In this document: one piece after another, positions 2 through 62,938 of the stretch
How the letters are laid out: each line of letters starts with the position of its first letter
Numbering within the stretch: position 1 is the stretch's first letter
DNA from: Pseudomonadales bacterium
Lineage (GTDB): Bacteria; Pseudomonadota; Gammaproteobacteria; Pseudomonadales; Azotimanducaceae
Assembly: GCA_011525295.1 (NCBI GenBank)
Contig: WTGV01000059.1
Location: forward strand, 1-64,000
Direction: 5' to 3'
Length of the DNA stretch: 64,000 nucleotides
Notes under the pieces: generated by a model
The model's database searches: none
What the model saw: only the letters and a program-made list of their open reading frames with translations
Told to the model about the DNA's origin: nothing
Position numbers and translations under genes: made by a program

Positions 2-316
2 CTCCTCTTAAAAAAGAAAATTAAATTATGTCCACTAACTAGTGCACACTCCACTGAACGGCTTGAAGCTGATTTAAATACCGATTTAATTACAGCAAAA
101 AATAAATTTAAATCGAGCGAGGACGAAAAAGAACCGCTGCCTTCGCGGTATCAGCGACGCGGGGTGTCACCTCGACAGCTTTTGGCTGCGAAATTCGAAG
201 GGGATCTAGACGATGCCCTACATGAATCTGAGGCTGGAGAAGAGGAAGAACTAGAAAATGAAGGGATGGAAGATTCCGGTCATTTTCTCAACGAACCACA
301 GAATTTTGCATTATGA
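2..316 (+). CDS. C-terminal part of an unknown protein, cut by window start
   Basis: A reading frame is open from base 2 to the TGA at 314-316 (104 codons) without an internal stop, so this is probably the end of a gene that starts before the window. The visible part is hydrophilic: a Lys-rich beginning, a middle with SPRQLLAAKFEGDLDDAL, and a Glu/Asp-rich tail that ends in FAL. I recognise no family. Its stop overlaps the ATG of the next short frame (ATGA), which hints at translational coupling. The reading depends on frame openness only, so confidence is moderate. Confidence 0.45.
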   Translation, partial: LLLKKKIKLCPLTSAHSTERLEADLNTDLITAKNKFKSSEDEKEPLPSRYQRRGVSPRQLLAAKFEGDLDDALHESEAGEEEELENEGMEDSGHFLNEPQNFAL

Positions 317-495
317 AAATTGAATACCCAGAAGATTTAATGGTCCCACTATATGTGTTCTCGGTGACAATCCTGCCGGTACTTTTACTCCTTGTCAGTA
401 TTCTTGTTTATGGCGGATCGGCTTGCGAACCAGTAAGTGATAATACCAGTAGCGACGGGCAGTACAACCAAGAAGAAATCCTTAGCGACGGTTAA
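313..495 (+). CDS. possible small one-helix membrane protein
   Basis: Sixty codons that start in an ATGA overlap with the preceding frame. Residues about 10-33 form one hydrophobic segment (VPLYVFSVTILPVLLLLVSI) followed by a polar tail. The last 37 codons lie opposite the end of the minus-strand gene at 385-663, which is the better supported of the two, and no good ribosome site is visible. It may be real and coupled to the upstream gene, or a chance frame. Confidence 0.3.
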   Translation: MKIEYPEDLMVPLYVFSVTILPVLLLLVSILVYGGSACEPVSDNTSSDGQYNQEEILSDG

Positions 496-663
496 TGCGT
501 TATCGTCAATAGCTGGAATCCAAATACTAGCGACACACAATAAGCCCAAAAAGGTACCAACACCGAATACATATCCAGTTGCGATGTAGGTTACATACAC
601 CCGTACTTTGCTCTTGCGGACTTCTTTCTCCAGCTCTAAATCTTTGCGTTCGTCTTCAGTCAT
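385..663 (-). CDS. small two-helix inner-membrane protein, unknown
   Basis: Ninety-two residues: a charged N-terminus (MTEDERKDLELEKEVRKSK), hydrophobic segments at roughly 25-50 and 60-80, and a short basic/acidic tail. A GAGAGGGAGC ribosome site lies about 14 bases before the ATG. It is the third gene of an apparent minus-strand operon (1908-1540, 1484-705, 663-385) with gaps of about 55 and 41 bases. The family is not recognised. The arrangement of two membrane proteins around a secreted one suggests a common envelope role, which is inference. Confidence 0.6.
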   Translation of the reverse strand: MTEDERKDLELEKEVRKSKVRVYVTYIATGYVFGVGTFLGLLCVASIWIPAIDDNALTVAKDFFLVVLPVATGIITYWFASRSAINKNTDKE

Positions 664-704
664 GGTTCTTAAATTCAGCTCCCTCTCGACACGAATGATG
701 TATC

Positions 705-1484
705 TTAATCGTCGGTCGTTTCTTCGGCGCTATCTTCGTCCGAGTCAACTACGCTATGTTCGCACAGTTCTGTCGCCCATGCCCATTTACGCTCAAACAC
801 ATGGGAAATCGTGCCTTTCATATATGTCTCGCCATCTTTGTCCCGCGCAAGTTCTGAATCTAACTCATGGGGTAAGTCAACCTTCAAATTGAAATATTTA
901 TCGTCAAACTTCACGCGAACACGCATCTCAGAACTCTGAAGCATTCCCTCGAGAATCTGCTTTACTTTGGTACTATATATCAGTCTAGTACCTACCAAGG
1001 TTTCTTCTTCGGTAAACTCGATATGTTGCCTATCTACCTTTAAATCAAGAATCTTTAAGTCGTCCAACGGATCACTTTTTCTGATGAAACGTCCATCACG
1101 GGTAATAGTCTTAAAACGTTTAAAGTTGAAAGATAGCGTCGTGTTTCGCAGTTGCTGTTCTGTTAGATCAGTTGTAGGTACCACCACATTTATCAACGTA
1201 TAGCAAGGTATATCTTCCGTGGTTTGAACCCTAGCGATACTGAACAGTGTTGACTGTGAGAAGTCATAGGATGTTGACCCCTCTGGCCAGTTGATCCCAG
1301 CAATTTCTGGGGCTACGTAATATGTGAGCACACGAAAATACTCAGTATCATCAAATGGATCTAGTTGAGACAATCGAACCCATTTGAACGGCTCATCCTT
1401 ATCAATCGGCCGCACTTCAATATTTTCTTGGGCGACTAACGCTATCGTCAGAACAAGACAGACACAAAAAAGAGTGTTTCTCAC
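705..1484 (-). CDS. secreted protein of unknown function
   Basis: 259 residues from a GTG start. Residues 1-19 look like a signal peptide (hydrophobic CVCLVLTIALV, then AQ), so the product should be periplasmic or outer-membrane associated. The mature part is mixed alpha/beta in appearance with alternating hydrophobic strands, for example MRVRVKFDDKYFNLKVDL near residue 195, and ends in an acidic tail rich in Asp/Glu/Thr. No catalytic motif or lipobox is seen. It lies between two small membrane-protein genes on the same strand and is probably cotranscribed with them. Confidence 0.6.
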   Translation of the reverse strand: MRNTLFCVCLVLTIALVAQENIEVRPIDKDEPFKWVRLSQLDPFDDTEYFRVLTYYVAPEIAGINWPEGSTSYDFSQSTLFSIARVQTTEDIPCYTLINVVVPTTDLTEQQLRNTTLSFNFKRFKTITRDGRFIRKSDPLDDLKILDLKVDRQHIEFTEEETLVGTRLIYSTKVKQILEGMLQSSEMRVRVKFDDKYFNLKVDLPHELDSELARDKDGETYMKGTISHVFERKWAWATELCEHSVVDSDEDSAEETTDD

Positions 1485-1539
1485 CGTAGCATACCGGGTT
1501 TAAACTAGAAAATCCGCTATGTCAGCGGATGCTTGTATT

Positions 1540-1908
1540 TTATTCGTCCGCGCTGTCAAACGGATTTTGAGCCCAATCGGTTGATTTGGTTTTTGGTGCC
1601 AGTTCACGACCATAACGAGAGATTTGTGAATACGTGAAGTACAGGCCAATAACGATACATATGGTATTAACTAACGGATCGTCAAACCAGTGTTGATAAA
1701 TCTCCGCCTCAGTCATGAATTGAATATAGGGAAGCCACTCCGTAACTTGCTCTCGTCCCACGTTTTCATAAATCCATACGCCCCCAAAGTACGCTAAGAT
1801 TCGGAACCACCAATACGAACCGATACCCCAGATCGCTGTTGTAACGTAATGCTTGAGCTTCATTGCCTTTAGCGTGTCGAACAAGCTTAATTGTTCTTCC
1901 TTTGCCAT
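1540..1908 (-). CDS. small membrane protein, first gene of a three-gene operon
   Basis: The frame could start at 1941, but the ATG at 1908 is preceded by AGAGGTG at a good distance and gives MAKEEQLSLFDTLKAMKLKH, so I place the start there (122 residues). Two hydrophobic segments are visible, around 25-50 (aromatic rich, GSYWWFRILAYFGG) and 75-98 (LVNTICIVIGLYFTY). The C-terminus is soluble and ends in acidic residues. The family is not recognised. It is followed by the secreted 259-residue gene and the 92-residue membrane gene on the same strand. Confidence 0.6.
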   Translation of the reverse strand: MAKEEQLSLFDTLKAMKLKHYVTTAIWGIGSYWWFRILAYFGGVWIYENVGREQVTEWLPYIQFMTEAEIYQHWFDDPLVNTICIVIGLYFTYSQISRYGRELAPKTKSTDWAQNPFDSADE

Positions 1909-2200
1909 TACGCACCTCTTTTCGCATTCAGTTACCGGCACGCATAAGGTGCCGGGCCGTTTGCGAAAACTATTACTCTGTAATGGATTTTTCCTGCCGT
2001 TTCACCAAGCAGGCTATGTTATTGGACAGGTGACCCGACCAAGAGACAGAGTTCTAGTTATCGCCCGATTGATTATGCACAGGCAGGACAAAGAGAGAGT
2101 TTGAATACTACTAATCCAATGACGGCTGCGCGTATGTAATATTGTCAATGCACCGAAGCTTCGTGAAGCTAGCGTCAAAAGGAGGTGATGTGGAATAGAT

Positions 2201-2293
2201 GTGCTTAAGAAAACTCTAGATCAAATTCGACACGATCAGGAAAAAACGAGAAAAGCTCTGGAAGAATCGTTTAAAGTAAGCCTTCCAACATGA
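2201..2293 (+). CDS. possible 30-residue helical peptide
   Basis: A GTG-started frame of 30 codons, too short for usual gene finding. An unusually complete Shine-Dalgarno match, AAGGAGGTGAT, lies at 2179-2189, about 11 bases before the GTG. The product would be highly charged and helical (KKTLDQIRHDQEKTRKALEE). Its TGA is the first base triplet of a perfect 17-bp hairpin at 2291-2330. The strong ribosome site plus a hairpin at the stop argue for a real small gene, but there is no homology support. An ATG at 2188 gives only six residues. Confidence 0.35.
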   Translation: MLKKTLDQIRHDQEKTRKALEESFKVSLPT

Positions 2294-2330
2294 CTCTGCC
2301 CTAGACCAGATTTGGTCTAGGGCAGAGTCA
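2291..2330 (+). terminator. perfect 17-bp hairpin overlapping a stop codon
   Basis: TGACTCTGCCCTAGACC at 2291-2307 and its exact complement at 2314-2330 with a six-base loop AGATTT. The stem begins on the stop codon of the 30-residue frame. There is no T-run after it, so it is a terminator-like or mRNA-protecting hairpin rather than a classic intrinsic terminator. Confidence 0.5.
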
Positions 2331-2396
2331 GAATCCGGTACAGTTTCTGCGAAACGCTAGCTCAGATCTGTGCTAACTTTACGAACTTTTGGAATC

Positions 2397-2723
2397 TTAT
2401 TTTGAAATCCCCTGAGTCAGAGTTGCGGCCAAAGCTCCAACTGACGCAGATGCCAAAGTGAGTAACGCGGTATCAACTTCGGTACTTTCACATGCACCTG
2501 AAGTCCATAACAATACGTAAGCAACGACTGCAATCACTATAGTTAAAAAGAGAAACCATATGATTGCAAGATAGAATCTTGGATCTCTACTCGGATGAAG
2601 TATTCTTTTCCGTGGAGGTCTTTTCCTCAAGAATCCGGTTCCAAATATCATCCGCCTCGGACTTTCGTGCTGAAGGGAATCTGAAATACTCAACTTCGTG
2701 TCCCCATGCTTTTCTTCTGCCAT
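2397..2723 (-). CDS. small two-helix membrane protein, unknown
   Basis: 108 residues. The N-terminal 45 are polar and then very basic (FLRKRPPRKRILHPSRDPR), typical of a cytoplasmic stretch before a first membrane segment at about 50-73 (LAIIWFLFLTIVIAVVAYVLL); a second, weaker hydrophobic segment covers about 84-103 (ALLTLASASVGALAATL). Ribosome-site match is weak. No family is recognised. It is divergent from the broken channel gene that follows and stands alone on its strand. Confidence 0.5.
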   Translation of the reverse strand: MAEEKHGDTKLSISDSLQHESPRRMIFGTGFLRKRPPRKRILHPSRDPRFYLAIIWFLFLTIVIAVVAYVLLWTSGACESTEVDTALLTLASASVGALAATLTQGISK

Positions 2724-2799
2724 TAAATCAGACCAAGAGTTGTCCGGTGACTAGTTCAATTTTGTCAGAACAGCACTACCGAGGGCGACGAGCTCAACG

Positions 2800-3249
2800 A
2801 GGTTCTTACTTCTTACCGAAAATATATCCAGTGGTCAACATTACCAAGCTTAACGCTCCTAACGCAATCTCCATATTATCGGTATTAATCCACACCGCTA
2901 CGATACTGATCATTTTGGTCGCTCACATGGTTGAGATTCAAGTCTACATGTTGAGCTACAGCTTGCTGGGTCTCTTAGTTGATTCGGTTGTATTGCTGAT
3001 ACCAGTGGTGAGTGCGTACAAAATTGGTTCGACCTCACCTATTACTCGGCCGCAGTTTATACGACGCTCGGGTTCGGCGACCTAGTTCCGATCGGTCCGA
3101 TGCGAATTCTCACTGGAATTGAGTCGGTTGTAGGTTTAGCGTTGATCGCTTGGAGCGCATCGTATACCTTTTTACGGTACAGTGAACCGATGCAATCAAA
3201 CATTCAGCGGGCAGAGACGGAAACCTTACAACATTACGTAAACTTGTAA
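2800..3249 (+). pseudogene. broken two-helix potassium-channel gene (pore domain)
   Basis: The 3' part (frame open 2983-3246, stop TAA 3247-3249) encodes a clear potassium-channel pore: NWFDLTYYSAAVYTTLGFGD (selectivity filter TLGFGD) followed by the inner helix GLALIAWSASYTFL. The matching first helix with the HxxEI signature (HMVEIQVYMLSYSLLG) lies upstream in a different frame, open through 3085. The two reading frames cannot be joined without a one-base slip. The first part also seems to lack the loop that normally separates the outer helices, and no good start is present. I read it as a decayed ion-channel gene; a sequencing error or frameshifting is possible. Confidence 0.6.
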
Positions 3250-3276
3250 CACCGGGCGACTTCGTACCCGGTGTTA
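3247..3276 (+). terminator. 10-bp hairpin overlapping the channel stop codon
   Basis: TAACACCGGG at 3247-3256 pairs perfectly with CCCGGTGTTA at 3267-3276, loop of ten bases. The stem includes the TAA of the channel remnant. No T-run follows. It has the same placement as the hairpin at 2291. Confidence 0.45.
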
Positions 3277-3355
3277 CGTTAGAGCCGTTGCAGCGGCCCT
3301 AGATATGTGCTGGCAAATCCAGCGAGTTAGCAACGCCACTTTAGAGGATGTTAAA

Positions 3356-3607
3356 ATGCGCGAAAACTTCACAGATTTAAAACAAATATTCACACAACTG
3401 ATTCAACAAATACAAGGTGTATCCGAGTATCGATCAATTAAAGATTATCCTCCCGCTTCTCCAGTTCAACAAGACGCATCGGATCAAGCGATGAATTCCA
3501 TTGAGCGCGGAATGTGGCAATATTGGGAACAAGCGGCGCGAACGCGCTCATTGTCCCAAGCAGAACGTTCTTGCTTAGAAACGCTCCGTAATCGGTTTAG
3601 TAACTAA
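3356..3607 (+). CDS. small soluble protein, unknown
   Basis: The frame extends back to 3305, but the ATG at 3356 has GAGG eight to nine bases upstream and gives an 83-residue product (MRENFTDLKQIFTQLIQQIQ). It is hydrophilic and largely helical, with a Trp/Tyr-containing centre (GMWQYWEQAARTRSLSQAER) and no signal or membrane segment. The family is not recognised. It stands between the channel remnant and a convergent minus-strand pair. Confidence 0.5.
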   Translation: MRENFTDLKQIFTQLIQQIQGVSEYRSIKDYPPASPVQQDASDQAMNSIERGMWQYWEQAARTRSLSQAERSCLETLRNRFSN

Positions 3608-3647
3608 TTACTTCCTTTTCGGTTTTTCTGATCCGATTTAGCCGGTT

Positions 3648-4085
3648 CTAAGAAACCGACACTAACCACTTTCTGGGTTTATCCGGTTCTACCTCCCCAG
3701 TTGCGATCTTTGCGACTCGTACCACCTGCTGGATATCATCGAGTGGTTCTGGTTTGGGTTTTGATTTTTTGTCGGCGATGCAATACCCATACTCATTCAC
3801 CACTTTTTCAATCTTTTTGATTAATTCGGCGGTGAGTGCTTGACCGCTAAACTCGTCTAACTCAGGGGTCAAAGACATGAATGTGGGAAATTTTGATCCA
3901 GCAAGATGAGTACCCATTCCAATTTTTCTACCGTTATTGGTAAGTACATCACATCGTCCGTTTTCGCCGTGATCTATAAAGACACGCACTCTCTTGGTAG
4001 AACGAAATGCAACGTAAGCAATGACAGCAGTAGCTGAAGTTGCAATAGCAGTTAGCGTAGATGTTATGACACTAACAGTTAGCAT
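3648..4085 (-). CDS. membrane-anchored small protein with KIATG motif
   Basis: 145 residues with one N-terminal hydrophobic anchor (residues about 2-27, SVITSTLTAIATSATAVIAY) and a cytoplasmic-looking soluble part. Near the C-terminus it carries VVRVAKIATGEVEP, which resembles VMKMATGLAEEE in the 57-residue product encoded directly upstream. GAGGGAGA precedes the ATG. It is probably the second gene of a two-gene unit (4280-4107, 4085-3648; gap 21 bases). The family is not recognised; the shared motif suggests the two products are related or bind the same partner, which is inference. Confidence 0.6.
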   Translation of the reverse strand: MLTVSVITSTLTAIATSATAVIAYVAFRSTKRVRVFIDHGENGRCDVLTNNGRKIGMGTHLAGSKFPTFMSLTPELDEFSGQALTAELIKKIEKVVNEYGYCIADKKSKPKPEPLDDIQQVVRVAKIATGEVEPDKPRKWLVSVS

Positions 4086-4106
4086 TGTCTCCCTCGGTTC
4101 TGTGGT

Positions 4107-4280
4107 TTACTCGTCCTTTTCCTTAGGCTTCTCTTTCGGCGTGTCTTCCACGTACTCTTCTTCGGCGAGACCAGTTGCCATCTTCATGACATGAATTGCG
4201 TTAGCCACTTCACAGGCTGGACGTTTCTCTCCCTTCGGTCCGATTACGTAGGATTCCTCGGGCACTTCTTCTTTCTTCAC
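4107..4280 (-). CDS. 57-residue acidic/basic protein with KMATG motif, GTG start
   Basis: A GTG-started frame with GGAG about ten bases upstream encodes 57 residues: VKKEEVPEESYVIGPKGEKR at the start, then CEVANAIHVMKMATGLAEEE, then a Lys/Glu-rich tail ending in EKDE. Composition and the continuous hydrophilic pattern look like a real protein. It precedes the 145-residue membrane-anchored gene by 21 bases and shares an xxK(I/M)ATGxxE motif with it. The family is not recognised. An 11-bp inverted repeat at 4322-4350 sits in its upstream region. Confidence 0.55.
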   Translation of the reverse strand: MKKEEVPEESYVIGPKGEKRPACEVANAIHVMKMATGLAEEEYVEDTPKEKPKEKDE

Positions 4281-4321
4281 AGTAATTAAACTCCGTTTAG
4301 GTGGATAAAATTATATGTGAA

Positions 4322-4350
4322 TTATTTACAACTATCAAGGTTGTAAATAA
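4322..4350. promoter_or_regulatory. perfect 11-bp inverted repeat upstream of two divergent units
   Basis: TTATTTACAAC at 4322-4332 and GTTGTAAATAA at 4340-4350, seven bases apart. It is AT-rich and lies 42 bases upstream of the GTG of the minus-strand gene and just before the truncated methyltransferase. A dimeric repressor operator is the simplest reading; a terminator is less likely because nothing transcribes into it on the plus strand nearby. Confidence 0.35.
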
Positions 4351-4364
4351 GAAGAGAATGTTAA

Positions 4365-5723
4365 ACTAGATCACTACTCGGAAATCCGCCTTTCAGTGGC
4401 GCGAAATTTCAATCAAAATTACAACGAGCCCAAGTTCGGCGCGTCGCTGAACTTGGCGGGAGCGGAGGTACGCTAGACTTTGTGAGTGCCTGGTTTATAA
4501 AAGGAGGCGAATATATTAAATCAGGTAAAGCTCGTATTGGATTCGTAGCCACAAATTCTATTACACAAGGTGAACAAGTCGCTCAACTCTGGCCGATACT
4601 GTTCAATCGGTGTGGACTCGAACTGGCGTTTGCACACCGTACATTTGCATGGGGATCAGATGTTCGGGGTAAAGCTCATGTACATGTGGTGATAATCGGG
4701 CTGGACCGAGGGGACAACGCGAGAACTAAAGCTCGCTTATTTAGCTATACCGACCTCGATAGAGACCCTGAAGAGAGCGCGCATTCATCCCTATCACCGT
4801 ACCTTATAGACGCGAGCAATCTAGTAGATCGGCACCTGACCGTCGAAGAGGAGAATGTTCCTTTGAATCACATGCGACAACTGTCATTTGGTACCCAACC
4901 ACTCGAAAACGGAAATCTCACTTTTAATTCTAAAGAAAGAGAACTGTTTGTTAGAAGGGAACCTCTCTCCGCACCGTATTTTCGACCTTTCATTGGTGCA
5001 AAAGAGCTTCTAAGAAACCAAAAGCGTTGGATTCTCCACACCGAGGACATTGCTCCCGTTCAACTCCAAAAAATGCCGCTCGTGCGCGAAAGATTGAAAG
5101 CGGTAAAGACCTTTCGGGGTAATAGCTCACGACAAACTACCAAAAAACTTGCGGACTTTCCTACTCGGTACGGAGTTACAGAAGTACCGACAGAGCCTTT
5201 CCTCACGATACCTAGGGTAAGTTCAGAGAGACGAGAATATGTTCCAATAGGCTGGCTCAAACCGCCGGCGATTCCCAGCGAAGCTACGCTGATTCTTCGA
5301 GGTGCGACGCTGAGAGAGTTTGGAATTCTAACATCGGCAATGCATATGGCTTGGCTTCGACAAATCGGAGGTAGATTAGAGAGTCGGTATCGTTACTCTT
5401 TAGGACTAGTCTACAACACTTTTCCGATCCCGCCCGGATTTGCTAGTGGCCAAGGGGATTTTTCGAGTATCGAAGAATTAGCTCAAGAGGTTCTTGATGC
5501 ACGTGCCGTTCATACTGACGCGACACTTACTGATTTGTATGATCCTATTGTCATGCCGACAAATCTACGAAAAGCACATCATGCACTAGACCGCGCAGTT
5601 GATCGCCTTTACCGTTCGAAGCGATTCGACTCGGAACGAGAGCGATTGGAGTATCTCTTCAAACTTTATGAAGAAATGCTAAGACCCCTAGGCAAGAATA
5701 GTAAAACGAAACCACGAAAATAG
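4365..5723 (+). pseudogene. C-terminal half of an MmeI/YeeA-like adenine DNA methyltransferase
   Basis: The frame is open from 4365 (after TAA at 4362-4364). It starts a few residues before LLGNPPFSGAKF, which holds the NPPF catalytic motif (motif IV) of N6-adenine methyltransferases, and continues as LDFVSAWFIKGGEYI, FVATNSITQGEQV, FAHRTFAW, FRPFIGAKELL, PRVSSERREYVPIG, GILTSAMHMAWLR and SRYRYSLGLVYNTFP. These follow in order the second half of the large class I DNA methyltransferases related to MmeI. Those proteins are usually about 900 residues; here the SAM-binding motif I half is absent. A GTG at 4482 could start a 413-residue product, but without motif I it should be inactive. It looks like a relic of a larger restriction or defence gene. 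Confidence 0.75.
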
Positions 5724-56368: not shown

Positions 56369-57636
56369 CAGTGTCCGCCCGTTACCCTTTCTGGTACCGG
56401 TTTCGTTTTCTCTCGCTGGGTATACCAAGGCATCAACAAAAAGTACGAGAAATACACCAAGGTCGCGATCTGCGCTGTTGCGGTACCGAAACCAGACGGG
56501 GGAATAGTACCGAGATAACCCAATACGATAAAGCTTATAACTAGCATTCCGAGCATGAATTTCGAAATTCTGCCTTTATAGCGAATTGACTTGACCGGAC
56601 TCTTATCGAGCCAAGGTAACGCTACCGGAATCAGGATCGCTCCGGCCATCACTACTAGACCCCAAAACTTTGCATCAAGCCCAAACAAGGGAAAAGTAAC
56701 TGCTCGTAACATCGCATAGAACGGCGTGTAGTACCAAACGGGAGCAATATGGTCTGGTGTAGCAATGGGGTTTGCAATCTCAAAGTTTGGTTTCTCAATG
56801 AAGTATCCGAACATTTCAGGCGCAAAGAACATTACGACGCAAAAGAGGATAAGGAACACCATTACAGCGAAAAAGTCATGAACTGTGTAATAAGGATGGA
56901 AAGGAATCCCATCTAATGGAACACCTTTTTCGTCCTTCTTGTCCTTAATTTCAATACCATCGGGATTATTTGATCCTACGTGATGTAGGGCAACCATGTG
57001 GACGAACACGAGTACAACTAATACTCCGGGCAAAGCAAACACATGGAGCGCGAAGAAACGGTTCAACGTAATTCCCGACAGCACAAAATCTCCTCGCACC
57101 CATTCGGCAAGGTCAGCACCCACTATCGGTACAGCACCGACAAGCGAGACGATGACTTGTGCTCCCCAGTAAGACATATTGCCCCATGGTAGTAAATACC
57201 CGAAAAAGCCTTCCGCCATGAGAACTAAGTAAATGCCCATACCAATCAGCCAAATGAGCTCTCGCGGTTTGCGATAGGATCCGTACGCGAAACCCCGAAA
57301 CATGTGAAGGTAAATAACGACAAAGAACGCTGAGGCACCCGTTGAGTGGGCATAGCGAATCAACCATCCCAAGTCAACTTCATGCATGGCATATTCAACG
57401 GAACCAAATGCACCTTCGGCTGTTGGTACATAATTCATCGTGAGAAACAAGCCAGTAACCAGTTGGATTATTAAGACGACAAATGCTAGGACGCCAAATA
57501 CGTACCAAACGTTAAAGTTTTTGGGTGCGTAATACTTGCTAGCGTGTTTCTCCATGGTGGGAGTCCATGGGAAACGCTCGTTGATCCAAGTCATCGAACG
57601 CGCGATAAAGCCGCGATTTTCCAATGACTCACTCAT
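56368..57636 (-). CDS. petB: cytochrome b of the bc1 complex (PetB)
   Basis: 422 residues from the ATG at 57636, inside an eight-base overlap with petA. Eight or more membrane helices; heme-ligand helices in LIRYAHSTGASAFFVVIYLH and RFFALHVFALPGVLVVLVFVH, Qo-site region PYYTVHDFFAV and TPDHIAPVWYYTPFYAMLRA. Proton-pumping quinol oxidising core. Fused length (no separate PetD) is standard for proteobacteria. Confidence 0.96.
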   Translation of the reverse strand: MSESLENRGFIARSMTWINERFPWTPTMEKHASKYYAPKNFNVWYVFGVLAFVVLIIQLVTGLFLTMNYVPTAEGAFGSVEYAMHEVDLGWLIRYAHSTGASAFFVVIYLHMFRGFAYGSYRKPRELIWLIGMGIYLVLMAEGFFGYLLPWGNMSYWGAQVIVSLVGAVPIVGADLAEWVRGDFVLSGITLNRFFALHVFALPGVLVVLVFVHMVALHHVGSNNPDGIEIKDKKDEKGVPLDGIPFHPYYTVHDFFAVMVFLILFCVVMFFAPEMFGYFIEKPNFEIANPIATPDHIAPVWYYTPFYAMLRAVTFPLFGLDAKFWGLVVMAGAILIPVALPWLDKSPVKSIRYKGRISKFMLGMLVISFIVLGYLGTIPPSGFGTATAQIATLVYFSYFLLMPWYTQREKTKPVPERVTGGH

Positions 57637-58234
57637 CAAATTCCTCAGTATCGACGCCGACATGAAGGATCGTATCGTTCTCAAACTGATGAACTGGAAC
57701 TTCTAGGTTAGTTGGTGCCGGTAAATTTTTCTCAACGCGACCTGCAAGGTCGAATTTGGAACCGTGGCAAGGGCAAAAGAAACCACCCTTCCAACGTGAG
57801 TCAAATTGTTCCGGTTTAGCTTCACCGTAGTATTTCGGGACGCATCCAAGGTGAGTACACTGACTTAGATACACACCTATTTCTGGGCGTCTCGAACGAG
57901 TTGAATTTTTCGCGTAGTTAGGTTGTACGCTACGTTTTGACATTGGATCGGCAAGTCGTCGGTTTTCAGCTTCGAGTCGTTCGATTGCTTCCGGTGTACG
58001 ATACACGACAACTATCCCTCTACCACGCCACTCGGGAGCTGGTTTTAAAATCTCGCCAGGTTTTAACTTCGTTATATCGACCTCAATTGGAGCGCCGAGT
58101 GCTTTGGCTTTCTCGCTCGGAGTCCATGAACGCGCAAATGGTACCGCTGCACCAGCAGCGCCAACTGTAGTCACCGCCGAAGTAGCAATCAGCAGGTATC
58201 TTCGAGTAACTGGACTAGAGTTCGTTTCGTCCAC
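57629..58234 (-). CDS. petA: Rieske iron-sulfur protein (PetA)
   Basis: 201 residues from a GTG with AAGGAGG ten bases upstream. N-terminal twin-arginine-like signal anchor (SPVTRRYLLIATSAVT). The 2Fe-2S cluster boxes are complete: CTHLGC and CPCHGS. First gene of petABC-sspAB on the minus strand. Confidence 0.96.
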   Translation of the reverse strand: MDETNSSPVTRRYLLIATSAVTTVGAAGAAVPFARSWTPSEKAKALGAPIEVDITKLKPGEILKPAPEWRGRGIVVVYRTPEAIERLEAENRRLADPMSKRSVQPNYAKNSTRSRRPEIGVYLSQCTHLGCVPKYYGEAKPEQFDSRWKGGFFCPCHGSKFDLAGRVEKNLPAPTNLEVPVHQFENDTILHVGVDTEEFDE

Positions 58235-58353
58235 GTGAGTAATTCCTCCTTACCTGCCTAGGATAGTTGCGTACATACCGTTTGATGGCATGCACTGGAC
58301 AACGACGTTTCGTTCGATCGTTCTAACGCCAAATTTGAGTGTACAGAAGCAAT

Positions 58354-58746
58354 TTACCGCTTGGAGTATTGCGGGCGTTTTCTAGCTTTTCGCAGCCCAA
58401 CTTTCTTTCGCTCAACTGCTCGGTCGTCGCGTGTGAGAAATCCGGCGGCGCGTAAATCTGCTTTGAAGTTTACGTTGAAATCTACGAGTGCACGCGCGAC
58501 CCCGTGCCGAATTGCTCCCGCTTGCCCAGAACTGCCGCCACCGCGCACGGTGATCTGCAAGTCAACGGACTGCAATGTTTTAGTAACTTCTAAGGGCTGT
58601 CGAATAATCATGCGAGCAGTTTCGCGACCAAAATATGAGTCCAATGGTGCTTTGTTTACGGATATTTCACCTTTGCCGGGAGATAGAAACACTCGAGCTG
58701 TGCTCGTTTTACGCCTCCCCGTACCATATCCAGAATTTAGTGCCAT
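58354..58746 (-). CDS. rpsI: 30S ribosomal protein S9
   Basis: 130 residues, complete: [20 protein letters not shown] at the start, [20 protein letters not shown] and the C-terminal [16 protein letters not shown] that reaches the P site. Second gene of the rplM-rpsI pair; 18 bases after rplM. Confidence 0.97.
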
Positions 58747-58764
58747 AACGTACTCTCTACAAAT

Positions 58765-59193
58765 TTATAGCGTCAACTCACGCGGTTGTTGTGCTGTGTG
58801 TGGGTGCTCGCTACCGCGGTACACTTTTAACTTACGGGCCACTTGTCGCCCCAAAGGATTGCGCGGCAACATACCCTTCACCGCTCGTTGAATGATCTGC
58901 TCCGGCCGTTTTTCCCGCATTTCCTCTAACGTCCTCGACTTAATTCCTCCGGGGTAGCCTGTATGGCGGTAATATATCTTGTCAGTTTCCTTTCGACCAG
59001 TCACTTGAACCTGTTCAGCATTAACGACGACAATGTAATCACCAGTGTCGACGTGTGGCGTATATTGGGGTTTGTGTTTCCCGCGCAAACGATGTGCTAG
59101 CGCAGCGGCTAGTCTGCCTAAGGTGTATTGTGACGCATCCACAATATACCAATCGTGGACGACATCTTGCGCCCGGGTGCTTACGGTTTTCAA
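58765..59193 (-). CDS. rplM: 50S ribosomal protein L13, TTG start
   Basis: 142 residues. Starts with TTG at 59193; alignment with other L13 N-termini ([20 protein letters not shown]) leaves no ATG option. Conserved [40 protein letters not shown] and [20 protein letters not shown]. No clear Shine-Dalgarno precedes the TTG, which is odd for a ribosomal protein. Heads the rplM-rpsI operon. Confidence 0.95.
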
Positions 59194-59516
59194 CTAAGAT
59201 CAGATATTGTCGTTGGGTTTGTGAGCGAGAATGATAGCGAATACCGACTTGTTATTCAATATTCTGCGACAAGTTTTTAGTGACTTTCTGGATTTCAGGG
59301 CTTAGTCGGGTGGTCTTTGAGTGTTCTGTAGCTTCGTTTGAATAAGCCTCTGTCAAGCCTTATTGAACAGCTTGGTTTCAACTCCCGTCACAATTTCAAT
59401 AATATTTTGAGTTGCCTCGCTCCAAATTGATCGTTCCCTCACAGTTTCAGGTGGAAGTGATCGAACCAAGGGAATGACCGTAGCGATACACTTTCAAATA
59501 CTTAATTCGGGAAAAC
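59194..59516. other. divergent promoter region of rplM and the DsbA-like gene
   Basis: 323 bases that must contain promoters for both directions. I see no further gene or structured RNA; no -35/-10 pair can be set with confidence. Confidence 0.35.
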
Positions 59517-60698
59517 ATGGCAAAAAAGAAGAAGCAAAAACAGGACCGGTCTGTAAAAATCGTACGTTGGAGTATCCTGGGTACGATAGGATTAATCATC
59601 ACCGCATTTGTGATATATGCCGTCCTCTACACCCTAGGTGTGTTTGACTCGTCTGAAAAATATTCAACGCTTGCTGATCGCGACGCACAAACGGATCACA
59701 TAGAAGTCGTCGAGTTCTTCTCGTACAAATGTATCCACTGCCAACGATTGGAAACTCGTTTACAGCAATTTGAAGCAAATCTTCCTGAAAACGTTAGCTT
59801 TTCACGAATTCACGTTGCTTTTAATTTGCAAGCGCAGAGATTGGCAAAGTTACACGTTGCGCTACAACTCAGCGATGCGCTAGATCAGAATCACGATCGA
59901 ATCTTCCAAGAAGCTGCAAAAAACAACAACACCTTCAATTCTCTGACCAGAATCAGTGACTTTCTGGACGGACACGGAATCACTAAAACACGATTTGAAA
60001 ATTTATACCAAGGTGATCGCGACGCACAAACGGATCACATAGAAGTCGTCGAGTTCTTCTCGTACAAATGTATCCACTGCCAACGATTGGAAACTCGTTT
60101 ACAGCAATTTGAAGCAAATCTTCCTGAAAACGTTAGCTTTTCACGAATTCACGTTGCTTTTAATTTGCAAGCGCAGAGATTGGCAAAGTTACACGTTGCG
60201 CTACAACTCAGCGATGCGCTAGATCAGAATCACGATCGAATCTTCCAAGAAGCTGCAAAAAACAACAACACCTTCAATTCTCTGACCAGAATCAGTGACT
60301 TTCTGGACGGACACGGAATCACTAAAACACGATTTGAAAATTTATACCAAGGTGATCGCGTGCGAAGATTGGTTGAACAAAATGATGATAAGTTACGACG
60401 TGCAAGTATTCTTGGAACCCCTTCGCTACTTGTAGCGAACAAATACGTCATCCATCCCAACGAACCGCCGATCATGATGCAGACATTGCATCAACTTATC
60501 AACGATATACGAGCCGGAAACCTACCGTTGCCCGAAGAAGAACCATCAAATGAAGACTTGGGACAACTAAACGAGGAAACTGTGGAAGAAGACGAAACGG
60601 AATCTATGACAAATGACGATGCTGCGGCTCCTGAACAATCTCCTACCGAGAACGAATCTTCGGGGAACACTTCTGAAGAAGGGGACTCACTCGAGTAA
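59517..60698 (+). CDS. membrane-anchored DsbA-like thiol-disulfide protein with exact internal duplication
   Basis: 393 residues. Lys-rich N-terminus, one membrane helix at about 18-43, then a thioredoxin-like half with VVEFFSYKCIHCQRLETRLQ (redox CIHC) and an alpha insert. That 113-residue block (59676-60014) is repeated at once (60015-60353); then one copy of the C-terminal thioredoxin half follows (LGTPSLLVANKYV, the cis-Pro loop) and an acidic tail of about 65 residues. Without the repeat the protein would be 280 residues, close to a tethered DsbA. The duplicated protein has two CIHC sites but one cis-Pro loop, so the first copy cannot fold as a complete domain. A real new variant or an assembly error. 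Confidence 0.85.
   Translation: MAKKKKQKQDRSVKIVRWSILGTIGLIITAFVIYAVLYTLGVFDSSEKYSTLADRDAQTDHIEVVEFFSYKCIHCQRLETRLQQFEANLPENVSFSRIHVAFNLQAQRLAKLHVALQLSDALDQNHDRIFQEAAKNNNTFNSLTRISDFLDGHGITKTRFENLYQGDRDAQTDHIEVVEFFSYKCIHCQRLETRLQQFEANLPENVSFSRIHVAFNLQAQRLAKLHVALQLSDALDQNHDRIFQEAAKNNNTFNSLTRISDFLDGHGITKTRFENLYQGDRVRRLVEQNDDKLRRASILGTPSLLVANKYVIHPNEPPIMMQTLHQLINDIRAGNLPLPEEEPSNEDLGQLNEETVEEDETESMTNDDAAAPEQSPTENESSGNTSEEGDSLE
59676..60353 (+). repeat. two tandem copies of a 339-bp unit
   Basis: Unit 1 59676-60014, unit 2 60015-60353; I find no difference between them by eye. 339 is divisible by three, so the reading frame stays open. Both junctions and the end share the short word TGATCGCG, which could have mediated the duplication. 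Confidence 0.9.
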
Positions 60699-61856
60699 TT
60701 CGATCCAATGCAATACCGGTACGTCTAACGCAGGTTCCAGAAAGAGCTGACACCCTACATTCGCTGTGACAACAACGTCGGGGGCAACATCAGTTAACGC
60801 TGATATTTTTTTATCTCGAAGTGCTCTTGCTTGCTTGGGCTGTAGAAGTGAATACGTTCCGGCTGAACCACAACACTGACTTGCATCTCGATAGGGTATC
60901 ACCTCGTAGCCCGTACGGGTGAGAATAGCTTCCACAATCCCACTAATTTGCTGTCCGTGTTGTAGTGTGCAGGGCGATTGAAACACTACACGCTCAGCTT
61001 TATGAGCTTTTTTGAATTCATACTGAACTAGATACTCACTAATGTCGCGGACGGCTCGGGCAAAACTACTCGCGTCTGCTACCTGTGGTAAATAGCGATC
61101 GTACTCCTTCAGAGTCACGCCGCAGCCACTAGCCGAAGACAAAATGACGTCGTCCGACCCAATCCGTATCTGGGAGACGTTCGCTGTCATCTCGCTCTGT
61201 GCAGCTTCCTTCTCTCCTAAGTGTAAATTCAAGGATCCACAGCAGCTTTCTTGGGACACGACCCGGAAACGAATTTCACGTGTTTCTAACAGCGTTGCTA
61301 AATGTGCGACTACTTCTGGGGTGAGTGCTTGCTGCACACATCCTTGTAAAAGAATTACTGTTCCTTCTTCCGTTCCCGTGATGGTGGTCGCTACCTGGAG
61401 TTTGCGAGATAACGCCTCTCGAACCGATTTAGACAAGATAAAAGGGCGAAACCAACGACCAACTCGATATAGTTGCTTAAATTTGGTAGGATTAGGGATT
61501 AGGTTTAACAGCACTCTCTGTAAGAATGATCGGTGGCTCGACTGGTTGGCTATGAGAAATCGTGCTTCTTCCGCAATTTTGCCATATCGCACACCTGACG
61601 GACACGCCGGCTCACACGCACGACACGTCAAGCATTTGCTCAAACTGTCTTCGAGCGCTTCATTGGTGTCGTCTCGCTCTAGCAAGCCCTTCACTAGGTA
61701 AATACGACCCCGAGGCCCTTGAAGTTCGTTCCCGGTCAATTGATACGTTGGACAAACGCTATTGCAGAATCCACAATGCACACACTTATTGATCTCCGCG
61801 ACGAGATCTTGGACGGCTTCTTCGTTCTTAAGTGTTGGAGCGATCATCGTGCGCAT
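60687..61856 (-). CDS. glcF: glycolate oxidase iron-sulfur subunit GlcF
   Basis: 389 residues. Two 4Fe-4S boxes: CVHCGFCNSVCPTY and CLTCRACEPACPSG, followed by two CCG domains (ESCCGSLNLHLGE, ASQCCGSAGTYSLLQP). Passes electrons from glycolate oxidation to the respiratory chain. Starts within the TAATG end of glcE; its stop overlaps the end of the DsbA-like gene by 12 bases (convergent). Confidence 0.95.
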   Translation of the reverse strand: MRTMIAPTLKNEEAVQDLVAEINKCVHCGFCNSVCPTYQLTGNELQGPRGRIYLVKGLLERDDTNEALEDSLSKCLTCRACEPACPSGVRYGKIAEEARFLIANQSSHRSFLQRVLLNLIPNPTKFKQLYRVGRWFRPFILSKSVREALSRKLQVATTITGTEEGTVILLQGCVQQALTPEVVAHLATLLETREIRFRVVSQESCCGSLNLHLGEKEAAQSEMTANVSQIRIGSDDVILSSASGCGVTLKEYDRYLPQVADASSFARAVRDISEYLVQYEFKKAHKAERVVFQSPCTLQHGQQISGIVEAILTRTGYEVIPYRDASQCCGSAGTYSLLQPKQARALRDKKISALTDVAPDVVVTANVGCQLFLEPALDVPVLHWIELLE

Positions 61857-62938
61857 TACAGTTCGACTCCTGGATTAAAAATCCTTTGTGGATCAAAGGC
61901 ATGTTTCAGTCTGTGCGCGTACTTACTGGATTGGGAAGTCTCATGTTTGACATTTCGGAAGCTACGGATTGCATAAGGTTTCGTCGAAATAGTCGGACGC
62001 GTTGAGTTCTGTGTCTTGCACCACAAAAGACTCCCATCCCACTCTACTAAGAACTCTTCAAGTTCCTGTGTATCCTCATCGTGAAACGACGAGTTTCGTG
62101 AAAGAGAAATTCGCCACAAGGCTTTATCGTCCGCAAAAAATGGAAGTGTATGATCGCGTAGTTTTTGCCAAAATTGCGGGTCGATTTCGGCATTCGACTC
62201 AAATGCCTTCATGTCTCGGTTAACTGCGGCGGCGACACCAGTGAAACGCAAATACAGCTTCCCGTCGAAGTAACAGGTCCCCGACAGCGACGAAGTCTTT
62301 CGTGTGTATTGCGAGATCAGTGATGTGCATTCTTGCGAATTTAGGGAAGTAGCGATTGATCGAGTTTGTTCCGGAATCGGAAGTAATTTAAGGCTGGCGC
62401 TCAGTAGGACGCCCAGAGTTCCCTGAGACCCACCGAGAAGACGAGCTACATCGAACCCAGCTACATTCTTAATCACTTTTCCGCCGAACCTTAGAAGTTC
62501 TCCGTATCCGTTGATCATTTCGACTCCTAAGAGGCTGTCGCGTACTGTACCGTACCATGGTCGACCTGGACCGCACCAACCACTTGCAATAGCCCCTCCA
62601 ACCGTACCCCTTCCATCAAACAGAGGTGGATCACACGCCCACATCTGCCCATGTTCAGCAGTAATGTCCCTAAGTTCAGTCAACTTCGTACCCGCGCGTA
62701 CTGTGATGACGAGTTCTTCAGGTCGATATTCAATCACGCCCTTGTGGTCGGATGTCGTTAAAAGTGGAACCGTTATATCCCCAGTGTACAAGAACGATTT
62801 GCTACCCTCACCCGTAATCCGCAACGGAAGTTTCTGTTCCAGTGCAGTATTGACCGCGTCTTGCAACGGCGAGGAGTCGTTCGCCACGGAGTTAAAAACG
62901 ACTAAGTTCGGGAAACGGCACTTGTCCTTTATGGACAT
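61856..62938 (-). CDS. glcE: glycolate oxidase FAD-binding subunit GlcE
   Basis: 360 residues from the ATG at 62938, which overlaps glcD by 47 bases; a GTG at 62887, four bases after the glcD stop, would give a start closer to other GlcE proteins (MANDSSPLQDAV). FAD_binding_4 pattern: LRITGEGSKSFL, TVRAGTKLTELRDITAEHGQ, GGAIASGWCGPGRPWYGTVR and GGKVIKNVAGFDVARLLGGSQGTLG. Shorter than GlcD, as usual. Confidence 0.93.
   Translation of the reverse strand: MSIKDKCRFPNLVVFNSVANDSSPLQDAVNTALEQKLPLRITGEGSKSFLYTGDITVPLLTTSDHKGVIEYRPEELVITVRAGTKLTELRDITAEHGQMWACDPPLFDGRGTVGGAIASGWCGPGRPWYGTVRDSLLGVEMINGYGELLRFGGKVIKNVAGFDVARLLGGSQGTLGVLLSASLKLLPIPEQTRSIATSLNSQECTSLISQYTRKTSSLSGTCYFDGKLYLRFTGVAAAVNRDMKAFESNAEIDPQFWQKLRDHTLPFFADDKALWRISLSRNSSFHDEDTQELEEFLVEWDGSLLWCKTQNSTRPTISTKPYAIRSFRNVKHETSQSSKYAHRLKHAFDPQRIFNPGVEL

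Follow-up and report, generated by a model that had tools for sequence, protein, structure and literature searches.

An in-frame 339-bp tandem duplication, probably recent, within a dsbA-like gene of a Pseudomonadales bacterium

The dsbA-like gene and its internal duplication

The window analysed here, a 64,000-nucleotide stretch (positions 1 to 64,000 of contig WTGV01000059.1), contains on the forward strand a dsbA-like open reading frame (59517..60698, 393 aa, from the ORF list), whose product is, judged by its sequence, a member of the DsbA family anchored at its N terminus. It scores 49.3 bits against Pfam DSBA (PF01323), for which the curated cut-off is 25.6 bits. The frame encloses a perfect head-to-tail duplication (59675-60352) of a 339-bp unit, equal to 113 codons, with copies identical at 339 of 339 positions. 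Copy 1 (59675..60013, forward strand) begins at the third base of codon 53 and bears a CIHC motif at residues 72-75; copy 2 (60014..60352, same strand) bears CIHC at residues 185-188. Since 339 is a multiple of three (3 x 113), the product stays in frame and the ORF remains open.

The 8-bp sequence TGATCGCG is found on the forward strand at the left border (59675..59682), at the junction of copy 1 and copy 2 (60014..60021) and at the right border (60353..60360). Because of these three occurrences, the identical stretch is 347 bp and thus longer than the unit: the offset-339 match in our own scan runs from 59675 to 60021, and Tandem Repeats Finder reports a period of 339, 2.0 copies and 100% match at 59675-60360. 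The 8-bp overlap allows nine registers for the unit, of which the leftmost (59675-60013 plus 60014-60352) is used here. The sequence-only reading had described an exact in-frame 339-bp duplication in a DsbA-like gene, its copies bordered by TGATCGCG, and this description is borne out by both scans, the open frame and the DSBA match; its coordinates, 59676..60353, began one base late.

An exact direct-repeat scan of the 335,616-bp contig C48, which carries the gene (offsets 20-5000; minimum run 30 bases, or the offset itself where this was 20-30), returned the 339-bp duplication as its sole match, so it is not due to chance. No further or larger tandem array was found in the window by Tandem Repeats Finder at its default score and a longest period of 500. 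A known RNA element at the locus was ruled out by the lack of Rfam matches at the gathering score in 58000-62000, and comparison of the duplication junction with viral contigs gave 0 matches, as expected.

Across 16 loci examined, most of them including no more than some 1.5 kb of flanking sequence, a glcF-like gene is a neighbour in 14, rplM/rpsI-like genes in 6 and at least one of these in 15; the names petA, petB, rplM, rpsI, glcE and glcF were read off translations and are not a database result. DSBA is matched at four other places in the genome and DsbB at one. Two further DSBA-like genes lie on the same strand within about 3 kb of each other on contig C33 of G000 (56951-60120).

The named close relatives are metagenome-assembled genomes of the OMG group/Gammaproteobacteria. 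The gene has matches in 56 of the 58 genomes searched, the window's own included, and two more distant genomes lack one. Copy number was read at 29 loci, each the best match of its genome (17 of the same genus, 11 of the same family, one of the same order), the remaining matching genomes being known from search-table matches only. A tblastn search with the 113-residue unit found it once per locus in all 29 relatives and twice in the window; with single units throughout these loci, an old or shared duplication is unsupported.

Domain organization of the product

Alignment of 18 relatives reveals a common arrangement of N-terminal hydrophobic stretch, CxxC motif, helical insert and proline loop, followed in most by an acidic tail. 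The duplicated gene encodes two CIHC motifs and one GTP loop (residues 300-302, with the proline at 302), and this motif count confirms the initial description of two CIHC sites with a single cis-Pro half. That single C-terminal half, delimited from the ORF translation and the alignment with relatives, is encoded at 60361..60698 on the forward strand and comprises the cis-Pro loop and then the acidic tail.

The best DSBA stretch, residues 179-321, covers copy 2 and the C-terminal half. The product matches 46 distinct solved sequences, best of all DsbA chain 3hd5_A, over residues 173-314, and on this comparison copy 2 and the C-terminal half hold the CxxC motif, helical insert and cis-Pro loop within one domain. 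From copy 2 onwards the DSBA score is 41.3 bits; one single-copy relative scores 45.6 bits. Copy 1 alone lacks the second (cis-Pro) half: together with the anchor it reaches 22.2 bits for Thioredoxin, below the cut-off of 23.5, and has no DSBA match at E 0.001. The NCBIfam cut-offs for classical DsbA equivalogs are missed by the product (NF047695, 105.3 of 290 bits; NF008198, 73 of 279 bits), as they are by three of three single-copy relatives.

These matches suggest that the full Dsb domain is probably formed by copy 2 and the single C-terminal half, with copy 1 as an orphan half-domain between the domain and the membrane anchor. The sequence is also compatible with the other register, in which copy 1 would pair with the C-terminal half and copy 2 would be an insert.

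Breakpoints, origin and age of the duplication

The 8 bp shared by the two ends of the unit are a microhomology that seems to have been present in the gene before it was duplicated. In the single-copy close relative G008, TGATCGCG occurs exactly at both places where the duplicated gene broke. At the left border, G013, G011, G007 and G002 depart from it by one or two bases; at the right border G007 is exact as well, and G013, G011 and G002 again depart by one or two bases. Exact 8-bp sequences at both sites are thus limited to one of the five close relatives. Because single-copy G008 is exact at both sites and four other relatives have near-matches, the 8-bp repeat is probably older than the duplication and was probably its substrate. 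Both breakpoint sites cover Asp-Arg codons. Of 18 same-genus genomes, 7 contain the pattern TGATCGCG-N(320-340)-TGATCGCG; its placement within the dsbA-like gene is confined to the genome of the window and G008.

Elsewhere on C48, beyond the gene, at least 8 bp are shared by 42 of 333,567 pairs of positions 339 apart, a chance of about 1 in 8,000; at random distances of 60-3000 on this contig the figure is 153 of 995,151. Read as a single copy, the gene offers eight pairs of direct repeats that are 8 or 9 bases long and separated by 60 bp or more. Two of these pairs are in frame, and the TGATCGCG pair is therefore one of several possible substrates.

We consider a real, ordinary and recent spontaneous tandem duplication within the dsbA-like gene to be the correct reading, with a probability of about 0.8. 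Most likely, a strand slip or switch during replication or repair, between two pre-existing 8-bp TGATCGCG sites 339 bp apart, would have led to the interval between them being copied twice. Such strand switching would be the simplest account, and the duplication should be unstable, as recombination between its identical copies would remove it. In lac amplification in Escherichia coli, all 40 sequenced amplicon junctions had microhomology (PMC3161906). For Salmonella, a cut-off of at least 11 bp was deduced for true duplications, candidates with 7 bp and 9 bp being negative by padlock probe (PMC3411829); the 8 bp of the present case fall under that cut-off, which is a caution against a mechanism mediated by TGATCGCG.

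The sequence-only reading had left a very recent event and an assembly error side by side, and the evidence favours the former. That the second copy arose in library preparation or assembly, as a chimeric molecule or as a minor variant of the population that entered the consensus, is unlikely, though the copies are perfectly identical, the assembly is a draft (68 contigs, 94.15% complete), the species is represented by one assembly and the 339-bp unit is longer than typical short reads. The ends of the unit share only 8 bp, so a real junction molecule would be needed; the same 8 bp occupy both sites in a single-copy relative; no other such repeat exists on 335,616 bp; and the duplication is in frame, as only one in three would be by chance. 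Assemblers use overlaps far longer than 8 bp, and an error of the assembler itself appears unlikely because 8 bp is too short as an assembly overlap.

Between the copies there are 0 differences in 339 sites (95% upper bound 0.9%). Compared with G013, the unit differs at 51 of 336 aligned sites and by a 3-base gap. At 34 unit positions, three of them gap columns, the lineage differs from all of G013, G008, G011 and G007, and 11 of the 34, gap columns included, are common to the outer relative G002. Because both copies carry all 34, the duplication is, by this comparison, recent and later than the lineage-specific changes, unless gene conversion equalised the copies, in which case it could be older than it looks.

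The lineage-specific changes are dense at 59820-59870 and at the same bases in copy 2, with 20 in the 113-bp bin from 59794. This cluster includes a 3-base stretch present in G002 and absent from G013, G008, G011 and G007. The cluster may have been imported as a tract, or it may preserve the ancestral state. Lesser clusters, with 11 and 14 changes per 113-bp bin, occur inside the glcF-like gene (61376-61601). A recombination tract was rejected as the cause of the duplication: because the cluster lies mid-unit and in both copies, and lesser clusters are found in the next gene, it is older than the duplication, whose breakpoints do not coincide with the ends of the cluster.

Consequences for the protein and comparison with known systems

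In the genus, the single-copy gene is under purifying selection, with dN/dS values of 0.03-0.12 for the unit and 0.10-0.20 for the rest of the fold (five comparisons, dS being saturated for G002). The duplication itself is probably neutral or mildly harmful. Partial loss of function may be tolerated because of the four further DSBA places and the DsbB match in the genome, and it is perhaps owing to the other DSBA-family genes that the duplication is tolerated.

It is very improbable that selection has kept the extra CIHC-bearing half as a second redox site or as a means of longer reach from the membrane. The frame and both CIHC sites are intact, the single-copy gene is constrained as described, and in-frame internal duplications can work, as the selected fliE revertants of Salmonella illustrate (PMC8546590). 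Against this, copy 1 lacks a separate cis-Pro half and, scored together with the anchor, stays below the Thioredoxin and DSBA thresholds; in E. coli DsbA, a cis-proline substitution abolishes turnover (PMC13269488). Moreover, the duplication occurs in 0 of 29 relatives, and the copies hold zero differences that could reveal selection. Slighter still is the probability that the repeat is a reversible switch, recombination between the copies toggling the population between one- and two-unit membrane-bound Dsb forms that differ in reach or activity.

The preferred reading of a spontaneous duplication makes this an ordinary kind of mutation, by which the protein gains an extra, incomplete half-domain. 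It offers a clean natural case of a gene apparently caught soon after internal duplication, with the likely starting state, 8-bp repeat included, surviving in a related species, and illustrates how short repeats in coding sequence may seed in-frame duplications. If confirmed by reads, it would also be a test of how well a Dsb domain tolerates a second copy of its first half. Within open-licence PMC articles, we found no paper joining DsbA, tandem duplication, in-frame and thioredoxin, a result that extends to that collection and makes no claim about print as a whole.

The order of CxxC motif, helical insert and cis-Pro half, here at residues 173-314, is shared with DsbA oxidoreductases (PF01323, 3hd5_A), whereas the present protein also has an N-terminal anchor, an acidic tail and, ahead of this domain, an additional first half. 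The E. coli lac junctions (PMC3161906) and the Salmonella rearrangements (PMC3411829) are likewise direct duplications whose junction is a short sequence found at both unit ends; in contrast to these, the unit here is very small, in frame and within one gene, and was found in an environmental genome rather than a selected culture. The in-frame internal duplications of fliE in motile Salmonella revertants (PMC8546590) also lie within coding sequence and keep the frame, but they were selected and restored length, whereas the product described here is longer than those of its relatives.
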